Part shown: piece by piece, positions 3,404 to 35,012 of the stretch
Layout of the letters: every line of letters starts with the position of its first letter
How positions within the stretch are numbered: the first letter of the stretch is position 1
From: a virus
DNA: 49,343 nucleotides
Virus record (IMG/VR): IMGVR_UViG_3300033571_018524
Span: 1 to 49,343 of that record
Strand: one strand, 5' to 3'
Position numbers and translations under genes: made by a program
Notes under the pieces: generated by a model
What the model was told of the DNA's origin: nothing
What the model saw: the letters and a program-made list of their open reading frames with translations, nothing else
Databases searched by the model: none

Positions 3404-3614
3404 TCAATTAATCGAATATATGAAGCTTCATTTAATTAGTCTTGAACAAGATTCTGAAAAGATTTGGAATGCTATGGACCAAATAGATGACCTTAACTCT
3501 GAAGAGTATGAAAGATTAAATATAGAAGATATTAGGAATGGTGGAGAACAATCTGCTACCCGCCATTTATTGTCAGTGGCTACTGATATAATGGAAAAAA
3601 CGAAAGGAAACTAA
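3396..3614 (+). CDS. Hypothetical helical protein
   Basis: 72 residues, helical and acidic, not recognised. GAGG lies upstream of its ATG. Its 3' end carries a promoter-like site at 3571-3592 within the coding sequence. Its stop overlaps the next ATG (TAATG). Confidence 0.65.
   Translation: MSNQLIEYMKLHLISLEQDSEKIWNAMDQIDDLNSEEYERLNIEDIRNGGEQSATRHLLSVATDIMEKTKGN
3571..3592 (+). promoter_or_regulatory. Internal left-arm promoter with TGTCAGTGG
   Basis: TGTCAGTGG (3571-3579) and TATAAT (3587-3592), with the same 16-bp offset seen at 184, 361 and 2079. It lies in the tail of the upstream gene and 22 bases before ATG 3614, whose ribosome site GAAAGGAA falls between. Confidence 0.65.
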
Positions 3615-3895
3615 TGGAACTATATTCAGAAAAACTGGACCCACATCTACAGCGCATGGTAGACGCTGGAGTTAACGGGCTCGATATCATGCACGGTCAT
3701 TTAAAGATTCTTATGCTGGAGGCTGACGCACAGTTAACGGAGGCACAGCGTATTGAAGAAGAGAATGACTATGACGACGCCATGGAATCCATGGAGCGTA
3801 AGTACTGGGAGGGTATGTGTGACGCATACACATCTTTATACAAACTTACGTATGACCTATCATTTGCAATTGCAGGAATGGAGAAGCCTGAATGA
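3614..3895 (+). CDS. Hypothetical helical protein
   Basis: 93 residues, almost entirely helical by eye, with Met-rich and acidic stretches (MESMERKYWEGMCDAY). Not recognised. A strong ribosome site (GAAAGGAA) precedes it, and the internal promoter at 3571 may express it on its own. It overlaps the next gene by four bases (ATGA). Confidence 0.7.
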   Translation: MELYSEKLDPHLQRMVDAGVNGLDIMHGHLKILMLEADAQLTEAQRIEEENDYDDAMESMERKYWEGMCDAYTSLYKLTYDLSFAIAGMEKPE

Positions 3896-4209
3896 AACCA
3901 GGAGATAAAGATAAGTTAAATGAATGCCTGGATATTCTGGACCAAACAGATCTGGGGCTTTCCCTGGTCTGGCTCTGGACCTGGAGCACAATCAAGAACT
4001 TCATGGCTGATGAAACGTTTATCATGAAGAAGACAGAGGATGAGATGTGGGACTGTCTCTGTAAGGCTGTGGAGGCTGGGCACGGGTTCTCTCTAGAGTA
4101 TGGTGCCGAACAACATCATGAAGACGTTATGGAATGGATGTTAAATCGAGATTACATGGTAGATTCCATGTTTGAAGAGGAGGAGGAGGATGAGGATGAA
4201 GATGACTGA
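3892..4209 (+). CDS. Hypothetical protein with poly-acidic tail
   Basis: 105 residues, not recognised. The last 16 residues are almost all Glu and Asp, a feature of DNA mimics and of proteins that bind basic partners. The body is helical with a Trp cluster near residues 27-33. ATGA overlap with the upstream gene. Its base composition around 3950-4090 is less AT-rich than its neighbours. Confidence 0.7.
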   Translation: MKPGDKDKLNECLDILDQTDLGLSLVWLWTWSTIKNFMADETFIMKKTEDEMWDCLCKAVEAGHGFSLEYGAEQHHEDVMEWMLNRDYMVDSMFEEEEEDEDEDD

Positions 4210-4351
4210 TGAATTTATTAATGATCAGTTACATAAGGCGCAGCAACTTTTATGGGGAGGATCTGAAACTGAAAATATCGAAGCCCATAATATCATTGCT
4301 AAATTAATTAAAGATAGAATAGAACAAGTGGGAGTCCTAGGGGCAGAATAA
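4202..4351 (+). CDS. Small hypothetical protein
   Basis: 49 residues, opening MTDEFINDQLHKAQQLLWGG. It starts within the acidic tail codons of the upstream gene and ends the operon. Mostly helical; no motif recognised. Confidence 0.5.
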   Translation: MTDEFINDQLHKAQQLLWGGSETENIEAHNIIAKLIKDRIEQVGVLGAE

Positions 4352-4388
4352 TTCCCTTACGGAGACAATTAAATAAATCCTGGCCCTA

Positions 4389-4417
4389 TTTACAAATTCC
4401 AGTAAATAGGATATAAT
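4389..4417 (+). promoter_or_regulatory. Promoter of the Lsr2-like gene
   Basis: TTTACA (4389-4394), 17-bp spacer, TATAAT (4412-4417). The 9-mer found at other left-arm promoters is absent. A ribosome site GAAAGGA follows before ATG 4447. Confidence 0.75.
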
Positions 4418-4446
4418 AAATACAAACCGATCATGAAAGGATCAAA

Positions 4447-4596
4447 ATGACAACAAAGCGAGAATATCTAAAGTCAAAGGGCATTACAGTGGGAGCCCGT
4501 GGCCGTTTCTCTGGAGCTGCTAAGACAGCTCTAGCTGAGGCTGAGAAGGCTGGAGTCAAGTTCACAGCTGAGCAGCCAACAAACAAGGCGAAGTAA
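4447..4596 (+). CDS. Free-standing Lsr2 DNA-binding-domain-like peptide
   Basis: 49 residues, basic. Residues 5-30 read REYLKSKGITVGARGRFSGA and onward, which follows the layout of the Lsr2 C-terminal domain: helix, K/G-x-x-V, the R-G-R triplet (residues 18-20), then a second helix rich in Ala. In Lsr2 the RGR loop enters the minor groove of AT-rich DNA. Here the N-terminal oligomerisation domain of Lsr2 is missing. The gene has its own promoter (4389) and terminator (4603), so it is a single-gene unit, and its codons are more GC-rich than the surroundings. It could silence or counter-silence AT-rich DNA. The assignment is by motif only. Confidence 0.65.
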   Translation: MTTKREYLKSKGITVGARGRFSGAAKTALAEAEKAGVKFTAEQPTNKAK

Positions 4597-4602
4597 ATAA
4601 TA

Positions 4603-4639
4603 TTAGGGAGGGTCAGGGTCCTGCCTTGACCCTCCCTAA
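4603..4639 (+). terminator. Long hairpin terminator overlapping the next promoter
   Basis: Perfect 13-bp stem TTAGGGAGGGTCA / TGACCCTCCCTAA with an 11-base loop. No T-tract follows. The 3' arm supplies part of the TTGACC -35 of the promoter at 4626. Confidence 0.75.
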
Positions 4640-4655
4640 CTCATTGTGGTATAAT
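4626..4655 (+). promoter_or_regulatory. Promoter of the 4679 gene
   Basis: TTGACC (4626-4631), 18-bp spacer, TATAAT (4650-4655). The -35 lies inside the upstream hairpin. A ribosome site GGAAAGGCGG precedes ATG 4679. Confidence 0.75.
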
Positions 4656-4678
4656 TCAAGGTTGCGGAAAGGCGGATA

Positions 4679-5083
4679 ATGAAATTAACTAAAGAACAAA
4701 AGTTAGCATATAGCATTGCTGATAGCGTAGAAGAACATTGGTTTAATTCTTCTATCATTGGACATATCCTGTCTGACCAACCACATTTCACCATTGACCG
4801 AATTATGGAGTTGGTAGCCCAAATTATCAAACATAATGCGGAACGATATAAAGGTGATTTGGCTGGCGGAGAAGTATCAGAGGGTCTTATATTAGCAAAT
4901 GCCCTACAACAAAGTATATCAGATATAAAGAAGTCTAATGAATTTAATAATCTTAGACTACCTAGAGAAGCAAATCAAATAATTCGGGAATTACCCGAAG
5001 TACAATCAAATAACAATAGATATGACTGGTCTAAACATAATGACAAGTTTCTACCATTTGAGGTAAATGCAGTCATAATGTAA
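4679..5083 (+). CDS. Hypothetical helical protein
   Basis: 134 residues, not recognised. The first 85 residues look like a helical bundle (EEHWFNSSIIGHIL, then ELVAQIIKHNAERY). The tail is Asn-rich and probably flexible. It has its own promoter and a good ribosome site, and is followed by a terminator at 5105, so it appears monocistronic. Confidence 0.7.
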   Translation: MKLTKEQKLAYSIADSVEEHWFNSSIIGHILSDQPHFTIDRIMELVAQIIKHNAERYKGDLAGGEVSEGLILANALQQSISDIKKSNEFNNLRLPREANQIIRELPEVQSNNNRYDWSKHNDKFLPFEVNAVIM

Positions 5084-5104
5084 TTTATCAGACATATTGC
5101 CATG

Positions 5105-5143
5105 ATCCACAGGATGTATCCACATCTTGTGGATTATTTTTTT
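5105..5143 (+). terminator. Rho-independent terminator
   Basis: A 13-bp stem (5105-5117 with 5122-5134, one G-U) around loop ATCC is followed by TA and seven T. It contains ATCCACA and TGTGGAT, which resemble DnaA boxes, but the hairpin and T-tract explain it better as a terminator. Confidence 0.85.
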
Positions 5144-5151
5144 GTGCATAA

Positions 5152-5198
5152 GGGCAGAATGTCTCCTTTACGACAAATGTGTAAAAATCCCTGAAAAT
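5152..5198 (+). repeat. 47-bp left-arm element, copy C
   Basis: Starts GGGCA, centre TTTACG, end ATCCCTGAAAAT. It has the same length and order as copies B (1978) and D (5286). It lies in the gene-free stretch 5084-5483. Confidence 0.75.
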
Positions 5199-5233
5199 TT
5201 ATGAAAATTAGATCTAATATAAATAAAATATAG

Positions 5234-5265
5234 GACATATAGGGCAAAATATGCCAAAATATGTC
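5234..5265. repeat. Nested palindrome in the left-arm gap
   Basis: GACATAT (5234-5240) and ATATGTC (5259-5265) enclose GGCA (5243-5246) and TGCC (5252-5255), giving nested inverted repeats. GGGCAAAATATGCC (5242-5255) recurs at 5286-5299, the start of copy D. It could be a binding site for a dimeric protein or part of an origin. Confidence 0.55.
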
Positions 5266-5285
5266 AAAAAGGCTCTTGACAATGT

Positions 5286-5332
5286 GGGCAAAATATGCCA
5301 TTTACGAGACATATTGACAAATCCCTGAACAT
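5286..5332 (+). repeat. 47-bp left-arm element, copy D
   Basis: Starts GGGCAAAATATGCC, centre ATTTACG, end ATCCCTGAACAT. Beyond it, 5333-5437 is AT-rich and shows no gene, hairpin or other signal that I can name. Confidence 0.75.
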
Positions 5333-5437
5333 TTGCTACAAATTTGATTACGTCTTACATTATGAGATGTCCAATTACATGTATATCTAAATATATATAA
5401 ATTGATAACAATCACAAACTAATTAATAACATTTATT

Positions 5438-5477
5438 CTCCACTTTACTCCACAATTCTCCACTATTATGCTATAAT
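5438..5477 (+). promoter_or_regulatory. Methyltransferase promoter with three CTCCAC repeats
   Basis: CTCCAC occurs at 5438, 5448 and 5458, a strict 10-bp period, immediately upstream of TTATGCTATAAT, whose TATAAT is 5472-5477. There is no good -35. The next ATG (5484) is six bases after the -10, the leaderless spacing. Confidence 0.65.
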
Positions 5478-5483
5478 CTTTAT

Positions 5484-6047
5484 ATGGGTAGTAATGTTTC
5501 TCCATGGGGTTTATTTGCCTCAGAATCGCTGGTACACACCTTAAATCTGCATATGCCAGAAGATGCTATAGCAGTAGAATGTGGTGTTTATAGGGCATAC
5601 AATTTGGTCAAGATATTAGAGAACTGCCAGAAGATCAAAACAATATTTGCAGTTGACCAATATTTGCCATACACAGATTATATTGAGGAACCTACAAATG
5701 TGGTGGATAAAGATAAAATTGCCAGAGTAAAAGAGGCAGCATACGAAGAAATTAGTCAATCAAAATATAAGGATAAAGTAGTAATGCTTGAAAAAAGCTC
5801 ATTAGATGCTGCTAGAGATTTTGATGATAATTCAATTAATTTTATATTCTTAGATTCATATTTATCTGCTCAGGATGTAAAAGATGATTTGCATGCTTGG
5901 TATCCTAAATTGGCGGAAGGCGGAATAATGGCTGGACATGATTGGGAACTAGGAAATGCTGTAGATATTGAAGTGCATTGGTTTTGCTTACAAAACAATA
6001 TTAAGACTGTTAGTTTCTACGATATGGTCTGGGTATTTATTAAATAA
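5484..6047 (+). CDS. Class I SAM-dependent methyltransferase (Methyltransf_24-like)
   Basis: 187 residues. AVECGVYRAYNLVKIL (about residues 29-44) fits the SAM-binding loop, IFAVDQY the end of strand 2, and INFIFLDSYLSAQDVKDDL the later acidic loop; EGGIMAGHDW near residue 150 is the usual strand-6 motif of the family. Substrate unknown; relatives act on sugars, small molecules or proteins. The ATG is six bases after TATAAT, so the mRNA is predicted to be leaderless. It is the last rightward gene and converges on the 38-residue gene ending at 6050, with two bases between. Confidence 0.8.
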   Translation: MGSNVSPWGLFASESLVHTLNLHMPEDAIAVECGVYRAYNLVKILENCQKIKTIFAVDQYLPYTDYIEEPTNVVDKDKIARVKEAAYEEISQSKYKDKVVMLEKSSLDAARDFDDNSINFIFLDSYLSAQDVKDDLHAWYPKLAEGGIMAGHDWELGNAVDIEVHWFCLQNNIKTVSFYDMVWVFIK

Positions 6048-9151: not shown

Positions 9152-9327
9152 TTTAATCTAGACCACTTTCTGCCAGACCATTCATACTTAAGCAAGCACT
9201 CGCATTGCCAAATAGATCCAGCGTGTCTTTTTTGTAGATGTATTGCTCCCATACCTGGTTCATTTACAGACCATGGTAATTCACATTGATGACCTTTATC
9301 TTCACCAATCAATACAATCCAGGTCAT
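9148..9327 (-). CDS. Small protein between AhpC and AhpD
   Basis: 59 residues, opening MTWIVLIGEDKGHQCELPW, with three Cys (one C-x-C pair, QCECLL) and several Trp. It overlaps the AhpC stop (ATGA) and the AhpD start (ATGA), so all three must be translated in step. Not recognised; a role in the redox pair is an inference from position. Confidence 0.65.
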   Translation of the reverse strand: MTWIVLIGEDKGHQCELPWSVNEPGMGAIHLQKRHAGSIWQCECLLKYEWSGRKWSRLK

Positions 9328-9875
9328 CTAATTACATCTCCTCCGACTTCTCTGTTGCAAGCACAGAGTTCGCCTGTTTGGAGCGCATCTAAAATTCTTA
9401 ATGTCTCTTGAGGATTTCTTCCGACATCATGATTATTCACAGTTACATGCTGGATTACATTGTTTGGATCAACAATGAATGTTGCTCTATACGCAGAACC
9501 ATGCTTATGAGAAAAAACTCCTAGCTGTTCAGATAGAGAAAGTTCTCCTCTTTGTGTATCTGCAAACATCCATGTTTTTGTTTTCTTTAGGTCTTCATGT
9601 GAATTTCGCCATGCAATTTTACAAAATTCATTGTCTGTTGAGCCAATTAAAATTTGTGCATCTCTATCCCAGAAGTCCTGCGCTAGAGCGTCGTAAGCAA
9701 CAATTTCAGTTGGGCAAACAAAAGTAAAGTCTTTTGGATAAAAAACAATAACCTTCCACTTGCCTTCAAAATCTAACTCGCATAGGTTTTCAAATGATTC
9801 TGATGTGTAGTCAAGCATTCCTGGCTTTACTCCTACAACAGAAAATTTTTCTAATTTATCTCCGATTGTTTTCAA
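9324..9875 (-). CDS. ahpC: AhpC-type 2-Cys peroxiredoxin
   Basis: 183 residues, full length. The peroxidatic Cys54 is in FYPKDFTFVCPTEI and the active-site Arg130 in AYRATFIVD. Near the C-terminus GELCACNREVGG carries Cys171 and Cys173, the two extra Cys typical of mycobacterial AhpC that cooperate with AhpD. The start is TTG 9875, with GAGGAA upstream. It is followed by overlapping genes for a small protein and AhpD. Confidence 0.93.
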   Translation of the reverse strand: MKTIGDKLEKFSVVGVKPGMLDYTSESFENLCELDFEGKWKVIVFYPKDFTFVCPTEIVAYDALAQDFWDRDAQILIGSTDNEFCKIAWRNSHEDLKKTKTWMFADTQRGELSLSEQLGVFSHKHGSAYRATFIVDPNNVIQHVTVNNHDVGRNPQETLRILDALQTGELCACNREVGGDVIR

Positions 9876-19400: not shown

Positions 19401-19701
19401 GTTTATTTTTTAATCTTTTCCATGTATTTTTATCTTTATGTAAATTTTTTAATTTATCATTGGAGCCAGCGGATAAATAAATTCCACCCCATACTCCGTA
19501 TTCGTTATTTGCTTTACCATATTCATGACAAATATTAATAACTGGACAAGATAAACACATCTCGTCTATATTTTTTGCAATATTGATATCATTTTCGTAT
19601 TTATCAAAAAATAAATTTGTATCTAGTCCAGCACAGATTGCTAGATGATACCATTCAAAATCTTTTTTATCTACACCAAAATTATCTAAAATACTTGACA
19701 T
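19390..19701 (-). CDS. whiB: WhiB-family transcription factor
   Basis: 103 residues. Four Cys for the 4Fe-4S cluster: Cys23, then Cys49-x2-Cys52-x5-Cys58, followed by GVWGGIYL (residues 69-76), the WhiB turn. The basic C-terminus (KNTWKRLKNKHAN) is the DNA-contacting part. WhiB proteins are found only in Actinobacteria and their phages and bind the primary sigma factor. It lies in the same operon as the gene at 19682. It may redirect host or phage transcription and respond to redox or NO. Confidence 0.9.
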   Translation of the reverse strand: MSSILDNFGVDKKDFEWYHLAICAGLDTNLFFDKYENDINIAKNIDEMCLSCPVINICHEYGKANNEYGVWGGIYLSAGSNDKLKNLHKDKNTWKRLKNKHAN

Positions 19702-28519: not shown

Positions 28520-29941
28520 TTAAACAATTATATCATTTTTATATGTAGTTTTCCAAAGCTCTATGTCAAATTTATCATTTAATAGTGGCTGCCCTTTTAT
28601 ATTTAAACTAGTGTTTAATAATACAGGAACTCCTGTTACCACATACCATTCTGATAAAAGACTATATAGTCCTGGATGTTGTTTTTTATTTACTGTTTGA
28701 ACTCTAGATGTTCCATCAGCATGAACTACTGAAGGTATTTTATCTGGCTGTAAACATTTAGGTGTGTATTGCATGTACGGAGATTCATAGTTCATATCAA
28801 ACCATTTTGATGCATGCTCAGCCAAAACTACTGGAGCAAATGGCCTAAACAACTCTCTTTGTTTAATCAAATTAACTTTATCTTTAATGTTTGGATCTCT
28901 AGGATCTGCCAGAATACTTCTATTGCCTAAAGCTCTTGGACCAAATTCCGCTCTTCCTGTTGCTACTGCTGCAATTTTATTTCTAATTAATTCTGTAATT
29001 ATTTCTTTTACAGGATATTCTCCTCCAAGGTCATGTCCTAAATATGGACCTTTCCAATTTATATGTTTTCCATACATAGCTGCTGCTGCACCTAAAGAGC
29101 TTCCCGCATCTCCTGGGTTCGGCATAATCCAAACATCTTTAAAAATATTCCACAATAAAGTATTAGCTTTGCTGTTTAAAGCACATCCACCCATAAAAAC
29201 AAGATTTTGTTTACCTGTTGAATGTTTTACCATTTGCATAAAATCTATTAATCTTTGTTCATAAACAAATTGAACTGCTGCAGCAATATCAAACTTATCT
29301 TGTTCTGTTATTGGCAAATCCCAATCTTTTATTCCTTTATGAAAATTGTAAGATTGTATATGATATTTTGGAAAATAACTATCTACTTTTTCATAATATT
29401 TTTTCCAATCTCCGTATGCTGCCATACCCATCATAATATATTCTTCTTGATTTGGCATAAGACCAATTAATTGCGTAAAGGCTGAATAAAATAATCCGAA
29501 ACTTACTGGATAATTTTGTTTATATTTTAATTTTATTTTTTCACCCTCACCGATCCAGACGGTGGAAGTATTGTACTCTCCTATTGCATCTAAAACTACT
29601 ATAGCAGCATCAAAAAAATTACTAGTATAGTATCCTGCTGCTGCATGAGAATAATGATGTTTGAAATATTTTACTGGTAAGTCCATTGGAATATTTGGCT
29701 TCCAATCTGCCTGACCACCTTTTAAAATAATTCTTGACTGCTTTAACCTTGGTTTTTCATAATATGCTATATGTGTTGGTGTTCCATAATTTAACATATC
29801 TAAATAAATTTCTTTATTGTTATACCAATCATTTTTTTGTTTGCTGTATCTTTCTGCATGACCTGCAAAAAGTATTTCTCCATCCTTAATTAAAGATATT
29901 GCTGCGTCATGAGATGTTTCATTTATGCCTAGAATAATCAA
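28520..29941 (-). CDS. Carbamoyltransferase (NodU/TobZ-like)
   Basis: 473 residues from TTG 29941, with AGAAGGA upstream and directly after the preceding stop. The N-terminal ASKHA fold shows LGINETSHDAAISLI; HHYSHAAAGYYTS carries the His pair of the Kae1-like part; GNRSILADPRD and VLLNTSLNIKGQP belong to the C-terminal carbamoyl-phosphate domain. Family members carbamoylate sugars or antibiotics via carbamoyl-AMP. Its oxygenase and SGNH neighbours suggest modification of a glycan or small ligand. Confidence 0.88.
   Translation of the reverse strand: MIILGINETSHDAAISLIKDGEILFAGHAERYSKQKNDWYNNKEIYLDMLNYGTPTHIAYYEKPRLKQSRIILKGGQADWKPNIPMDLPVKYFKHHYSHAAAGYYTSNFFDAAIVVLDAIGEYNTSTVWIGEGEKIKLKYKQNYPVSFGLFYSAFTQLIGLMPNQEEYIMMGMAAYGDWKKYYEKVDSYFPKYHIQSYNFHKGIKDWDLPITEQDKFDIAAAVQFVYEQRLIDFMQMVKHSTGKQNLVFMGGCALNSKANTLLWNIFKDVWIMPNPGDAGSSLGAAAAMYGKHINWKGPYLGHDLGGEYPVKEIITELIRNKIAAVATGRAEFGPRALGNRSILADPRDPNIKDKVNLIKQRELFRPFAPVVLAEHASKWFDMNYESPYMQYTPKCLQPDKIPSVVHADGTSRVQTVNKKQHPGLYSLLSEWYVVTGVPVLLNTSLNIKGQPLLNDKFDIELWKTTYKNDIIV
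28527..28538 (-). promoter_or_regulatory. Extended -10 promoter
   Basis: AAATGATATAAT on the minus strand, inside the 3' end of the carbamoyltransferase gene. A leader of about 20 bases with AAAGGGAG leads to ATG 28504. Confidence 0.7.
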
Positions 29942-29942
29942 T

Positions 29943-30539
29943 TTATTTTCCTTCTGGCCAAATATCTGGTGTGCTTGCAAAAGAAATATCACTATATTTT
30001 TCTAACACAAGCATTGCTGTGTACCTATAAGAATCTTCTACAGTTTTAATTCTATGCCATAAATGGGTAGGAAAAATAATTACAGTTCCAGGTACTGGTT
30101 TGTACTCTATGTTAAGATCATCAAAATAAAGTTCCCCGCCTTTAAAATCATCATTTAAATACAGAACTGCAACGTAACCTTTAATGCCATCTTCTGGATC
30201 ATCTATATTCATATCTTGATGAGACATAAAGTTTTCTCTTGGACCAATTTTTGTCATAATAAAATTAGGTCTTGGACTAAATCCTGTTTCGTTATACATT
30301 GTTAAAAATTTTCTAAATTTAGTTTTAAAGATAGCTTCTAGCTGTTGATGTAAAATAAAAGCAGTACTCTGATGTTTTTCTTTTCTTTTAATTAAGAACA
30401 TAGGGCCCCTGCGTGGAGAGTCATACCAGGCATAGTCTGGATTTTCTCCTTCTCCTAATTCTTTTACAAGACTAAGTATGCTTTCATGCCCATTTACATG
30501 GAAAACAACAATTCTATTTTTTTCATCTAAAATTATCAT
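29943..30539 (-). CDS. 2OG-Fe(II) oxygenase
   Basis: 198 residues from ATG 30539, six bases after TACAAT (30551-30546); an in-frame ATG at 30566 precedes the promoter. His107-x-Asp109 (SHQDMN), His162 (LWHRIKTV) and Arg172 complete the site. GGELYFDDLNIEYKP is standard. It lies immediately upstream of the carbamoyltransferase. Confidence 0.87.
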   Translation of the reverse strand: MIILDEKNRIVVFHVNGHESILSLVKELGEGENPDYAWYDSPRRGPMFLIKRKEKHQSTAFILHQQLEAIFKTKFRKFLTMYNETGFSPRPNFIMTKIGPRENFMSHQDMNIDDPEDGIKGYVAVLYLNDDFKGGELYFDDLNIEYKPVPGTVIIFPTHLWHRIKTVEDSYRYTAMLVLEKYSDISFASTPDIWPEGK

Positions 30540-32969: not shown

Positions 32970-33213
32970 TATTTTTTTCATCCTTTTTGTCAATAACCAT
33001 TTGTGCAATTTCTTGTACATATTCTGAAAAATGTTTTCTAACACTTCCCTTTGGTCTTCCGCCAACTTCGTTCCATATTCTAATATACTGTTGAATATTT
33101 TCAAATGTTGTAGGACATACTTTTATTCCTTCTATTTCTTTTAAAACAATAGGAAGTGGAACATGTTTTCCACAACATTTGCATTCTTTTGCAATTTCTT
33201 GATACTTATTCAT
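32965..33213 (-). CDS. Small zinc-motif protein next to the terminase
   Basis: 82 residues. C-K-C-C-G-K-H at 11-17 and a later Cys (VCPTTF) give a possible zinc site. GGRPKGSVRKHFSEYV follows, an AT-hook-like core. Overlaps the large terminase stop (ATGA), so it may assist packaging. Not otherwise recognised. Confidence 0.65.
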   Translation of the reverse strand: MNKYQEIAKECKCCGKHVPLPIVLKEIEGIKVCPTTFENIQQYIRIWNEVGGRPKGSVRKHFSEYVQEIAQMVIDKKDEKNI

Positions 33214-35012
33214 ATAATCATCATCCTATCAACGGCTTCTCTTAAATGCTCTGGCATTCTTGGGGCTCTAATAACATTCTGTCTATGTTCCACTTCTCCG
33301 TCTGCCTGACTCATATCAGACTCAAAAGACATAGATTCGTAATTATGAATTCTAATTTCTTGATTTATATCAGGACGAGTATTGCTTATTGCATTAAATA
33401 CTGCTCCACATGCAGAATCTGCTAAGTCTTTAGATCCTTTTCTTGGGTGGTCAACTTTATCTTTTAAAATTTTAAGCTGTAATAATTCATCTATTAATAA
33501 TTTAATATTAGGCCCAGTTATTCTTTCTTCTAAAACAACCATAGCTAAATCATCATAATGTTTTTTAGCAACTGATAAAATTTCTGTATTAATATTATAT
33601 TGTTTTAATTGCTGCATCATGTCATGAGAATTCCATCGGTCAAATGTACATAATCTAATGTTGAATCCTCTTGTTTTTAACGCCAATATATAGTCTTTTA
33701 CCTCTGTAAAATCTACAGATTTGTCTGGAGTCGGAGTCCAATATCTAATTGCATCAATATGAACTATTGGGGCTGGCTGTGAATAATCATTTGTAACCTT
33801 AACATTAACCCATCTATCAACATGAGCCATTGTAACCGCACAATGGTCGTGCTTTTGTGCTAAGTCTACGTGAATAAAATAAAGCTTATCTGTTTCTGGT
33901 TTAAACCATTCTTCTAGTCTTCCAAATTGATCTACTGCTAAAGGTAGTTTGCAAAAAGCTTTTTCTATTTTTTCTCTAGATTTAAAAAATGCATCAACCA
34001 TTTCTGGAGGCATACATGCAAATCTTCCCAGAGCATCTAACGGGTTTCGATAAAAATCAACTTTAAAATCTTCAATTTTTTTTGTAGGATTTACATCCCA
34101 TGTAGGTCTTTTCAATGCATACGTCTTTGGATATAAATATGATTTAATGTGGTCTTCTTCCCATTCAACAACAATTTCATTTCCTTCAGTACCGTCTGGC
34201 AAATCGTCATCAATTTTTAATAATTTACTTTGAATAATTGTTTCTTTTTCTGCAATAACTGATTCATAAAATTTTTGAATAGGATCATTTTTAAAACGGG
34301 GAAATGAAAGAAGAATTACTTTTCCATAATCTGGAAAACGAGACATAACGGAAGCTCTATACATTTCATATATTGCGTCAGCTGTTTTTGCCTGATCATG
34401 ACCTGTTGTATTTTCAATGGCAAAACCTGCAATTTCATCCAAGATCACGGTGATTACGTTATAACCTTCGAAAGCTTCTCTTTCTGAGTGGCCTGAATGC
34501 ACAGTAATGTTTTTATCAAATTTAATTTCAGATGCTTTTTCTGTGTATTTTCCATCAAACCAAGCTGACCTGGTAACTCTTGTTTTAAATCCTTTAAAAA
34601 AAACATTGTTTGCTTGTTGAGCGTTGATAGCGATATTAAGTATGTCTATGCTATCTCCTGGAGGTTTTCCATAATAATTTGCAGGATCTTTAAGGCATAA
34701 CAATAAATATACTATATAAGAAACAGCAATTGTAGAACAATAGTCTTTTCCAGAACCTTTGCCTAGTTGGGCTATGACTTCATTGCAAGTTTGTTTAAAT
34801 TTTCTTGTACCCTCTTCTTCTCCGAATAATTTTTTAAGTGTTGATTCTTTGTATATTTGAGAAGATTTTTCAATTAAAGTATATTGATATTCAGAAAGTG
34901 GCGGTAGCCCAAGATAGTCTGGACTTGTTACAAAAGTTTGCAAATCAACAGGACGCTCATCAAACTCTTCTCCGTCTAGTAAATCAATTATGTCATTAAA
35001 ATTAAGATTCAT
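33210..35012 (-). CDS. terL: Terminase large subunit
   Basis: 600 residues. ATPase domain with a Walker A-like GKGSGKD (84-90) and Walker B VILDE (189-193). C-terminal RNase H-like nuclease with Asp383 in FIHVDLAQKHDH and further Asp in LCTFDRWNS and KDLADSACG. It packages and cuts phage DNA at the capsid portal. Small terminase and a 2OG oxygenase lie upstream in the same operon; no portal or capsid gene follows in this window. Confidence 0.9.
   Translation of the reverse strand: MNLNFNDIIDLLDGEEFDERPVDLQTFVTSPDYLGLPPLSEYQYTLIEKSSQIYKESTLKKLFGEEEGTRKFKQTCNEVIAQLGKGSGKDYCSTIAVSYIVYLLLCLKDPANYYGKPPGDSIDILNIAINAQQANNVFFKGFKTRVTRSAWFDGKYTEKASEIKFDKNITVHSGHSEREAFEGYNVITVILDEIAGFAIENTTGHDQAKTADAIYEMYRASVMSRFPDYGKVILLSFPRFKNDPIQKFYESVIAEKETIIQSKLLKIDDDLPDGTEGNEIVVEWEEDHIKSYLYPKTYALKRPTWDVNPTKKIEDFKVDFYRNPLDALGRFACMPPEMVDAFFKSREKIEKAFCKLPLAVDQFGRLEEWFKPETDKLYFIHVDLAQKHDHCAVTMAHVDRWVNVKVTNDYSQPAPIVHIDAIRYWTPTPDKSVDFTEVKDYILALKTRGFNIRLCTFDRWNSHDMMQQLKQYNINTEILSVAKKHYDDLAMVVLEERITGPNIKLLIDELLQLKILKDKVDHPRKGSKDLADSACGAVFNAISNTRPDINQEIRIHNYESMSFESDMSQADGEVEHRQNVIRAPRMPEHLREAVDRMMII

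Follow-up and report, generated by a model that had tools for sequence, protein, structure and literature searches.

The window, here the whole analysed stretch of 49,343 nucleotides (IMG/VR record IMGVR_UViG_3300033571_018524), carries on its plus strand a small gene for a protein of 49 aa, MTTKREYLKSKGITVGARGRFSGAAKTALAEAEKAGVKFTAEQPTNKAK. The gene and the features around it were as follows.

4385–4410, plus strand: operator-like inverted repeat CCTATTTAC / GTAAATAGG, spanning the -35 hexamer and the spacer, as read from the sequence
4389–4417, plus strand: sigma-70-like promoter TTTACA-17 nt-TATAAT, 11/12 consensus match
4429–4443, plus strand: small hairpin holding the Shine–Dalgarno site, GATC / ATGAAAG / GATC, with compensatory variants in relatives
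4447–4596, plus strand: free-standing Lsr2-type DNA-binding module of 49 aa, assigned from family, selection, profile and fold comparisons
4603–4639, plus strand: terminator-like hairpin of 17 bp (-31.4 kcal/mol, z -5.6)
4626–4655, plus strand: promoter of the next gene, 11/12 consensus match, with a -35 hexamer (TTGACC) that falls within the hairpin's 3' arm
4679–5083, plus strand: neighbouring gene of 134 aa, conserved in 75 of 80 loci and outside the peptide unit

Conservation and expression signals of the peptide gene

The peptide is basic, with 11 lysine and arginine residues, four aspartate and glutamate residues and a pI of about 10.3. Relatives are encoded on 141 stretches in IMG/VR, and the peptide is present in at least 80 contigs; the family counts given here rest on the best 80 of the 141 relatives, which represent 51 distinct proteins, 50 of them aligned. 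All of the best 80 were free-standing and 46–50 aa long. Synonymous change greatly exceeded non-synonymous change (pS 0.52 versus pN 0.13, median dN/dS about 0.15), indicating purifying selection on the peptide. A chance ORF at 4447–4596 was ruled out by the 141 relatives together with this dN/dS ratio. Among the 50 distinct aligned sequences 23 positions were invariant, including R5, E6, Y7, L8, G12, R18, G19, R20, F21, S22, A24, A25, K26, G36 and F39. A six-frame search of the window found the motif R-x-[WYF]-x4-G-x2-[VILA]-x2-[RK]-G-[RK] once, in the peptide ORF; all 51 distinct relatives had it too, and each kept the RGR triplet itself.

The GC content of the gene was 0.51, versus 0.34 in the next gene. 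A preliminary description of the locus had drawn attention to GC-richer codons than in the surroundings; the overall GC difference is real, but GC3 was an unexceptional 0.449, with genes at 3614–4209 reaching 0.47–0.53, and the excess is partly due to amino-acid composition, which leaves the point weak. No cellular relatives were found when genome contigs were scanned with the peptide alignment, and Rfam gave no match at 4000–5500.

Of 59 distinct upstream regions of relatives, 50 had a promoter in the corresponding location that matched at least 10 of 12 consensus positions. A minority sub-lineage (L030, L036, L046, L047, L050 and L075) had no promoter and carried a hairpin-like GGCTTCAAGGCGGAGCC before the peptide gene instead. 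The core of the inverted repeat, ATTTAC-N-GTAAAT, occurred once in the window versus 0.05 times expected, and about 20 related loci had the repeat in the corresponding position. Only 14 of 39 distinct promoters had arms of at least 6 bp, and covariation was weak, the observed pairing being reached in 66 of 2000 partner shuffles; the palindrome was rejected as a conserved operator on both counts.

The hairpin around the Shine–Dalgarno site varied in a paired manner among relatives (ATCTC/GGGAT, ATATC/GATAT, TTATC/GATAA, CTATC/GATAG and TTGTC/GACAA), and none of 2000 partner shuffles reached the observed pairing; the window copy taken alone was not significant. The same hairpin of 4–7 bp, with a loop ending in GAAAG, precedes a 258-aa gene in relatives (for example at about 790–815 in L005 and about 1003–1030 in L011). 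Its occurrence before this second gene marks it as a habit of the lineage rather than a special property of the peptide gene, and it may act in translation across the whole lineage.

At the 3' end, comparable strong hairpins were present in nearly all relatives, often with T-rich tails, and the layout in which the 3' arm doubles as the -35 hexamer of the next promoter recurred in many of them. The gene had been described earlier as having its own promoter and terminator. The promoter was borne out and a strong hairpin does follow the gene, but the hairpin at 4603–4639 is without a T-run and was not listed by the terminator scan. The combination of a separate promoter, a hairpin-framed ribosome site and a hairpin end suggests dosed, probably strong, independent expression.

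Small genes upstream of the peptide gene were conserved in 48–77 of 80 loci. The 134-aa gene downstream, whose start lay about 212–237 bases from that of the peptide gene among the loci listed, gave a weak Pfam match below the cut-off (PF01672, E 0.012).

Relation to the Lsr2 DNA-binding domain

The single peptide matched PHROG 6269, ‘Lsr2-like DNA bridging protein’, with an E-value of 2.4e-8, as did all 50 aligned members; the match was partial, covering profile positions 6–45 of 188, and a search of 16 related phage records that have the short form gave no second piece matching the rest of the profile. PF23359 (Lsr2_DNA-bd) was the only Pfam family touched by most members (48 of 50 at E up to 10, best E 0.012). 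The members lay below its cut-off as far as shown, the window peptide scoring 12.8 bits against a gathering cut-off of 26.9. When whole records were scanned, the peptide was the best or only place for PF23359 in 15 of 16 related phage records.

A profile–profile comparison of the peptide family with canonical Lsr2 domains, represented by eleven Lsr2-type domains mostly from actinobacterial plasmids, gave a probability of 96 and an E-value of 3.9e-9 over 29 gapless columns. The real alignment scored 38.7 bits, versus a best of 16.9 in 300 column shuffles of the peptide alignment and 10.4 for the reversed alignment. In the match, REYLKSKGITVGARGR aligns with the canonical IREWARxNGxxVSxRGR. No match to PF11774, the N-terminal dimerisation/oligomerisation domain of Lsr2, was obtained at E 0.1 in 16 related records including the window, and a 49-aa ORF is too short to leave room for it; nor was a second Lsr2 domain found in 16 related phage records. 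A search of the PDB by sequence returned chance matches only. On sequence grounds, these comparisons identify the peptide as a conserved Lsr2-type DNA-binding domain standing alone, with its own predicted promoter.

Two AlphaFold models (pLDDT 75 and 77, pTM 0.49 and 0.50) placed one helix at residues 4–10, the RGR in a loop and a second helix at residues 23–34/35, with a short strand pairing of residues 2–3 with 38–39. The first model, from a narrower alignment, had no Lsr2 match in the PDB; among viral models it came closest to a 193-aa protein (48 % identity, TM 0.71 by query length). The second was built from an alignment also holding the modules of two cultured phages, and the Lsr2 C-terminal domains 2kng and 6qkp ranked first and second of 350,542 PDB chains against it (rmsd 1.7 and 2.2 Å, TM 0.48 and 0.45, with weak E-values of 2.7 and 5.1). 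This ranking is supporting evidence, not proof, of an Lsr2 C-domain fold.

The structural comparison suggested by the preliminary description was thus favourable in rank, but the E-values and the unmatched first model make it less than conclusive. Its account of an Lsr2-like DNA-binding module with an RGR loop and two helices agrees with the profile–profile match, the RGR kept in 51 of 51 relatives and the models, and its statement that an oligomerisation domain is absent was confirmed by the scan for PF11774.

The module was also present in 49 cultured-phage records, and in the cultured relatives that were translated it stood at the N-terminus of a larger protein annotated as ‘Lsr2-like DNA bridging protein’. 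In the PHROG 6269 proteins of the Stanwilliamsviridae (Wakanda gp234, TunaTartare gp216, Mildred21 and Emma1919 gp219) the same module makes up the N-terminal ~40 residues, with the shared pattern REYL..GRGRFS..AK.AL..A..G..F and 42–60 % identity among the aligned modules. These Streptomyces phage proteins are multi-part and 173–193 aa long, whereas the window phage keeps the module alone. In Wakanda, TunaTartare, Mildred21, Emma1919 and Ankus the module is followed by a canonical Lsr2 domain and a Cys-containing tail, and in Mildred21 the two DNA-binding parts are visibly alike (...GLAKDARGRMS... and ...GMTVSARGRLS...). The Lsr2-like protein of Rhodococcus phage Weasels2 (124 aa) has the N-terminal module as in the window peptide and a Cys-containing tail without the canonical domain; the window peptide, in contrast, is module only.

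With the actinobacterial Lsr2 C-terminal domain (PF23359; 2kng, 6qkp) the peptide shares an R-x-[WY]-x4-G-x2-V-x2-RGR core and, in the models, two helices around the loop. It differs from actinobacterial Lsr2 in having no PF11774 domain, in a G-x2-F tail absent from canonical domains and in its sub-cut-off Pfam score. Phage-encoded Lsr2 is known in many actinophages, and a Ku–Lsr2 domain fusion has been described (PMC8612146). The ‘truncated’ Lsr2 proteins of lytic actinophages in clusters BD, BK, EE and EH are likewise short phage-borne pieces of Lsr2, for which interference has been suggested as the mode of action; they keep the oligomerisation domain without the DNA-binding domain, the reverse of the half carried by the window peptide (PMC10066036). 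No report of a phage protein consisting of the Lsr2 DNA-binding half alone was found in the literature. The single-domain Lsr2 DNA-binding phage peptide is new, although phage-borne Lsr2 and its pieces were already known.

Phage lineage and host

The closest annotated relatives of DnaE (57 %) and TerL (61 %) were from Streptomyces phages of about 125–135 kb, and those whose taxonomy was looked up belong to the family Stanwilliamsviridae. Judged by these proteins, the window phage is a distant relative of that family. It shares with Wakanda the gene order DnaE – TerL – WhiB – Lsr2 module, although the module gene is reversed relative to TerL between the two. When viral contigs were scanned with the long cultured relatives, one contig was matched by each, and no DNA near-identical to 24344–49343 of the window was found in phage records.

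WhiB was present in 20 of 20 records tested, including the window (19480–19653, minus strand), as detected with a profile that matched only Corynebacterium in a control set. This indicates that the phages are actinophages and that the host is an actinobacterium. The kind of phage suggests that the group is probably of freshwater origin. The phage genome is AT-rich, at about 34 % GC. No literature on Lsr2 in Planktophila/Nanopelagicales was found.

The peptide was carried by seven of 14 TerL relatives on contigs of at least 38 kb, at 16–30 kb beyond TerL, and by their coordinates the seven contigs without it end within about 29 kb of TerL on the side where the gene would lie. The gene looks near-core in the lineage. 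Relatives of TerL itself (33210–35012, minus strand) were found on at least 600 stretches in IMG/VR, which points to a large and mostly uncultured lineage.

Elsewhere in the window, six genes matched the 2OG-Fe(II) oxygenase family PF13640 (10100–10720, 10709–11245, 11321–11926, 27650–28504, 29943–30566 and 35002–35619) and a carbamoyltransferase was found at 28520–29992, together an unusual load for a 49-kb piece. A peroxiredoxin-like gene at 9324–9875 (minus strand) had its closest genome matches mostly in proteobacteria, in Ralstonia and other Burkholderiales (56–65 %), in contrast to the actinophage identity.

Possible roles of the lone domain

Competition with host Lsr2, the reading offered in the preliminary description, was taken as the best explanation of the peptide, with somewhat less than even confidence, and its mechanism was judged the most economical. 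In the C-terminal domain of Lsr2, the RGR loop enters the minor groove of AT-rich DNA. The peptide would be a monomeric mini-protein consisting of one Lsr2-type DNA-binding domain, whose RGR loop, by homology, most likely contacts AT-rich DNA in the same way. Lacking any known oligomerisation part, it would be expected to bind at nucleation sites but not to assemble a silencing filament there, and a host Lsr2-type silencer would in this way be excluded from the AT-rich phage genome as infection begins.

In C. glutamicum, Lsr2-like silencing can be countered simply by an unrelated DNA-binding protein bound at the nucleation site (PMC7002338), and counter-silencing at such a site with dCas works in Streptomyces (PMC12239563). 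Ler, whose resemblance to H-NS is confined to the DNA-binding domain, displaces H-NS and does so without cooperative binding, and RokLS20 (sRok), a Rok consisting of the DNA-binding domain only, can replace Rok in the competence pathway (PMC7074111). Both are silencer relatives on mobile elements with their likeness in the DNA-binding domain, as in the window peptide, but they belong to other silencer families (H-NS and Rok), are larger or have other parts, and are reported to have effects opposite to each other (PMC7074111). The ability of RokLS20 to stand in for Rok counts against competition, and the need of many mycobacteriophages for host Lsr2 in productive infection (PMC10066036) counts against a simple anti-Lsr2 role; loss of lsr2 is reported to lead to broad phage resistance (PMC11139207). 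A single small domain may also bind too weakly to displace an oligomer, and the position of the module within longer proteins of cultured relatives means that silencer competition need not have been its original job. Advanced more guardedly still is the fuller proposal that a freshwater actinophage lineage reduced a multi-domain Lsr2-like protein to one strongly expressed domain that blocks host Lsr2 nucleation on AT-rich phage DNA, which would make the peptide the smallest Lsr2-derived anti-silencer.

The basic pI of about 10.3, the strong and conserved promoter, the very strong sequence conservation and the ‘DNA bridging protein’ annotation in cultured relatives would also fit a small, abundant architectural or packaging protein that coats phage DNA for replication, condensation or packaging independently of host Lsr2. 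We consider this rather unlikely, given a lone domain with no obvious further surface through which it could dimerise or bind a second DNA and so bridge, the absence of any link found to structural genes and the selection of single domains as regulators elsewhere (PMC7074111). Less probable again is a sequence-specific regulator of phage transcription, which might be autorepressing by way of the palindrome that covers the -35 hexamer. The uniqueness of that repeat in the window and its recurrence in about 20 loci speak for such a regulator, but no more than 14 of 39 distinct promoters show it clearly, with weak covariation, and a lone Lsr2-type domain would more probably recognise the shape of the minor groove than a 9-bp arm.

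A similarly low standing is given to an auxiliary silencer or host-takeover factor, which would bind AT-rich parts of the host chromosome or add to host Lsr2 and so shut down host genes or defence. The complementation of Rok loss in competence by RokLS20 (PMC7074111) and the benefit that many phages draw from host Lsr2 activity (PMC10066036) are consistent with it, while the oligomerisation domain is missing from the peptide and from elsewhere in 16 related phage records. It is very improbable that the Lsr2 resemblance is non-functional and that the domain now serves as a protein- or RNA-binding peptide: the Pfam score below the cut-off, the W to Y replacement and the lineage-specific G-x2-F tail could be read in this way, but RGR and its flanking residues are invariant in 50 members and both the profile match and the fold ranking point to Lsr2 alone.

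If competition with host Lsr2 is correct, the peptide would be an actinophage counterpart of Ler-type anti-silencing from a single 5-kDa domain, and would point to a means by which phages rich in AT may withstand Lsr2-type silencers in freshwater actinobacteria, which are very abundant. It would also separate the DNA-binding and oligomerising halves of Lsr2 in nature and so make the action of the binding half on its own testable. Even without anti-silencing, the gene is widespread and strongly conserved in a phage lineage about which little is known, and the module alone, the module with a tail, and the module with a canonical domain and tail form a natural set of architectures.
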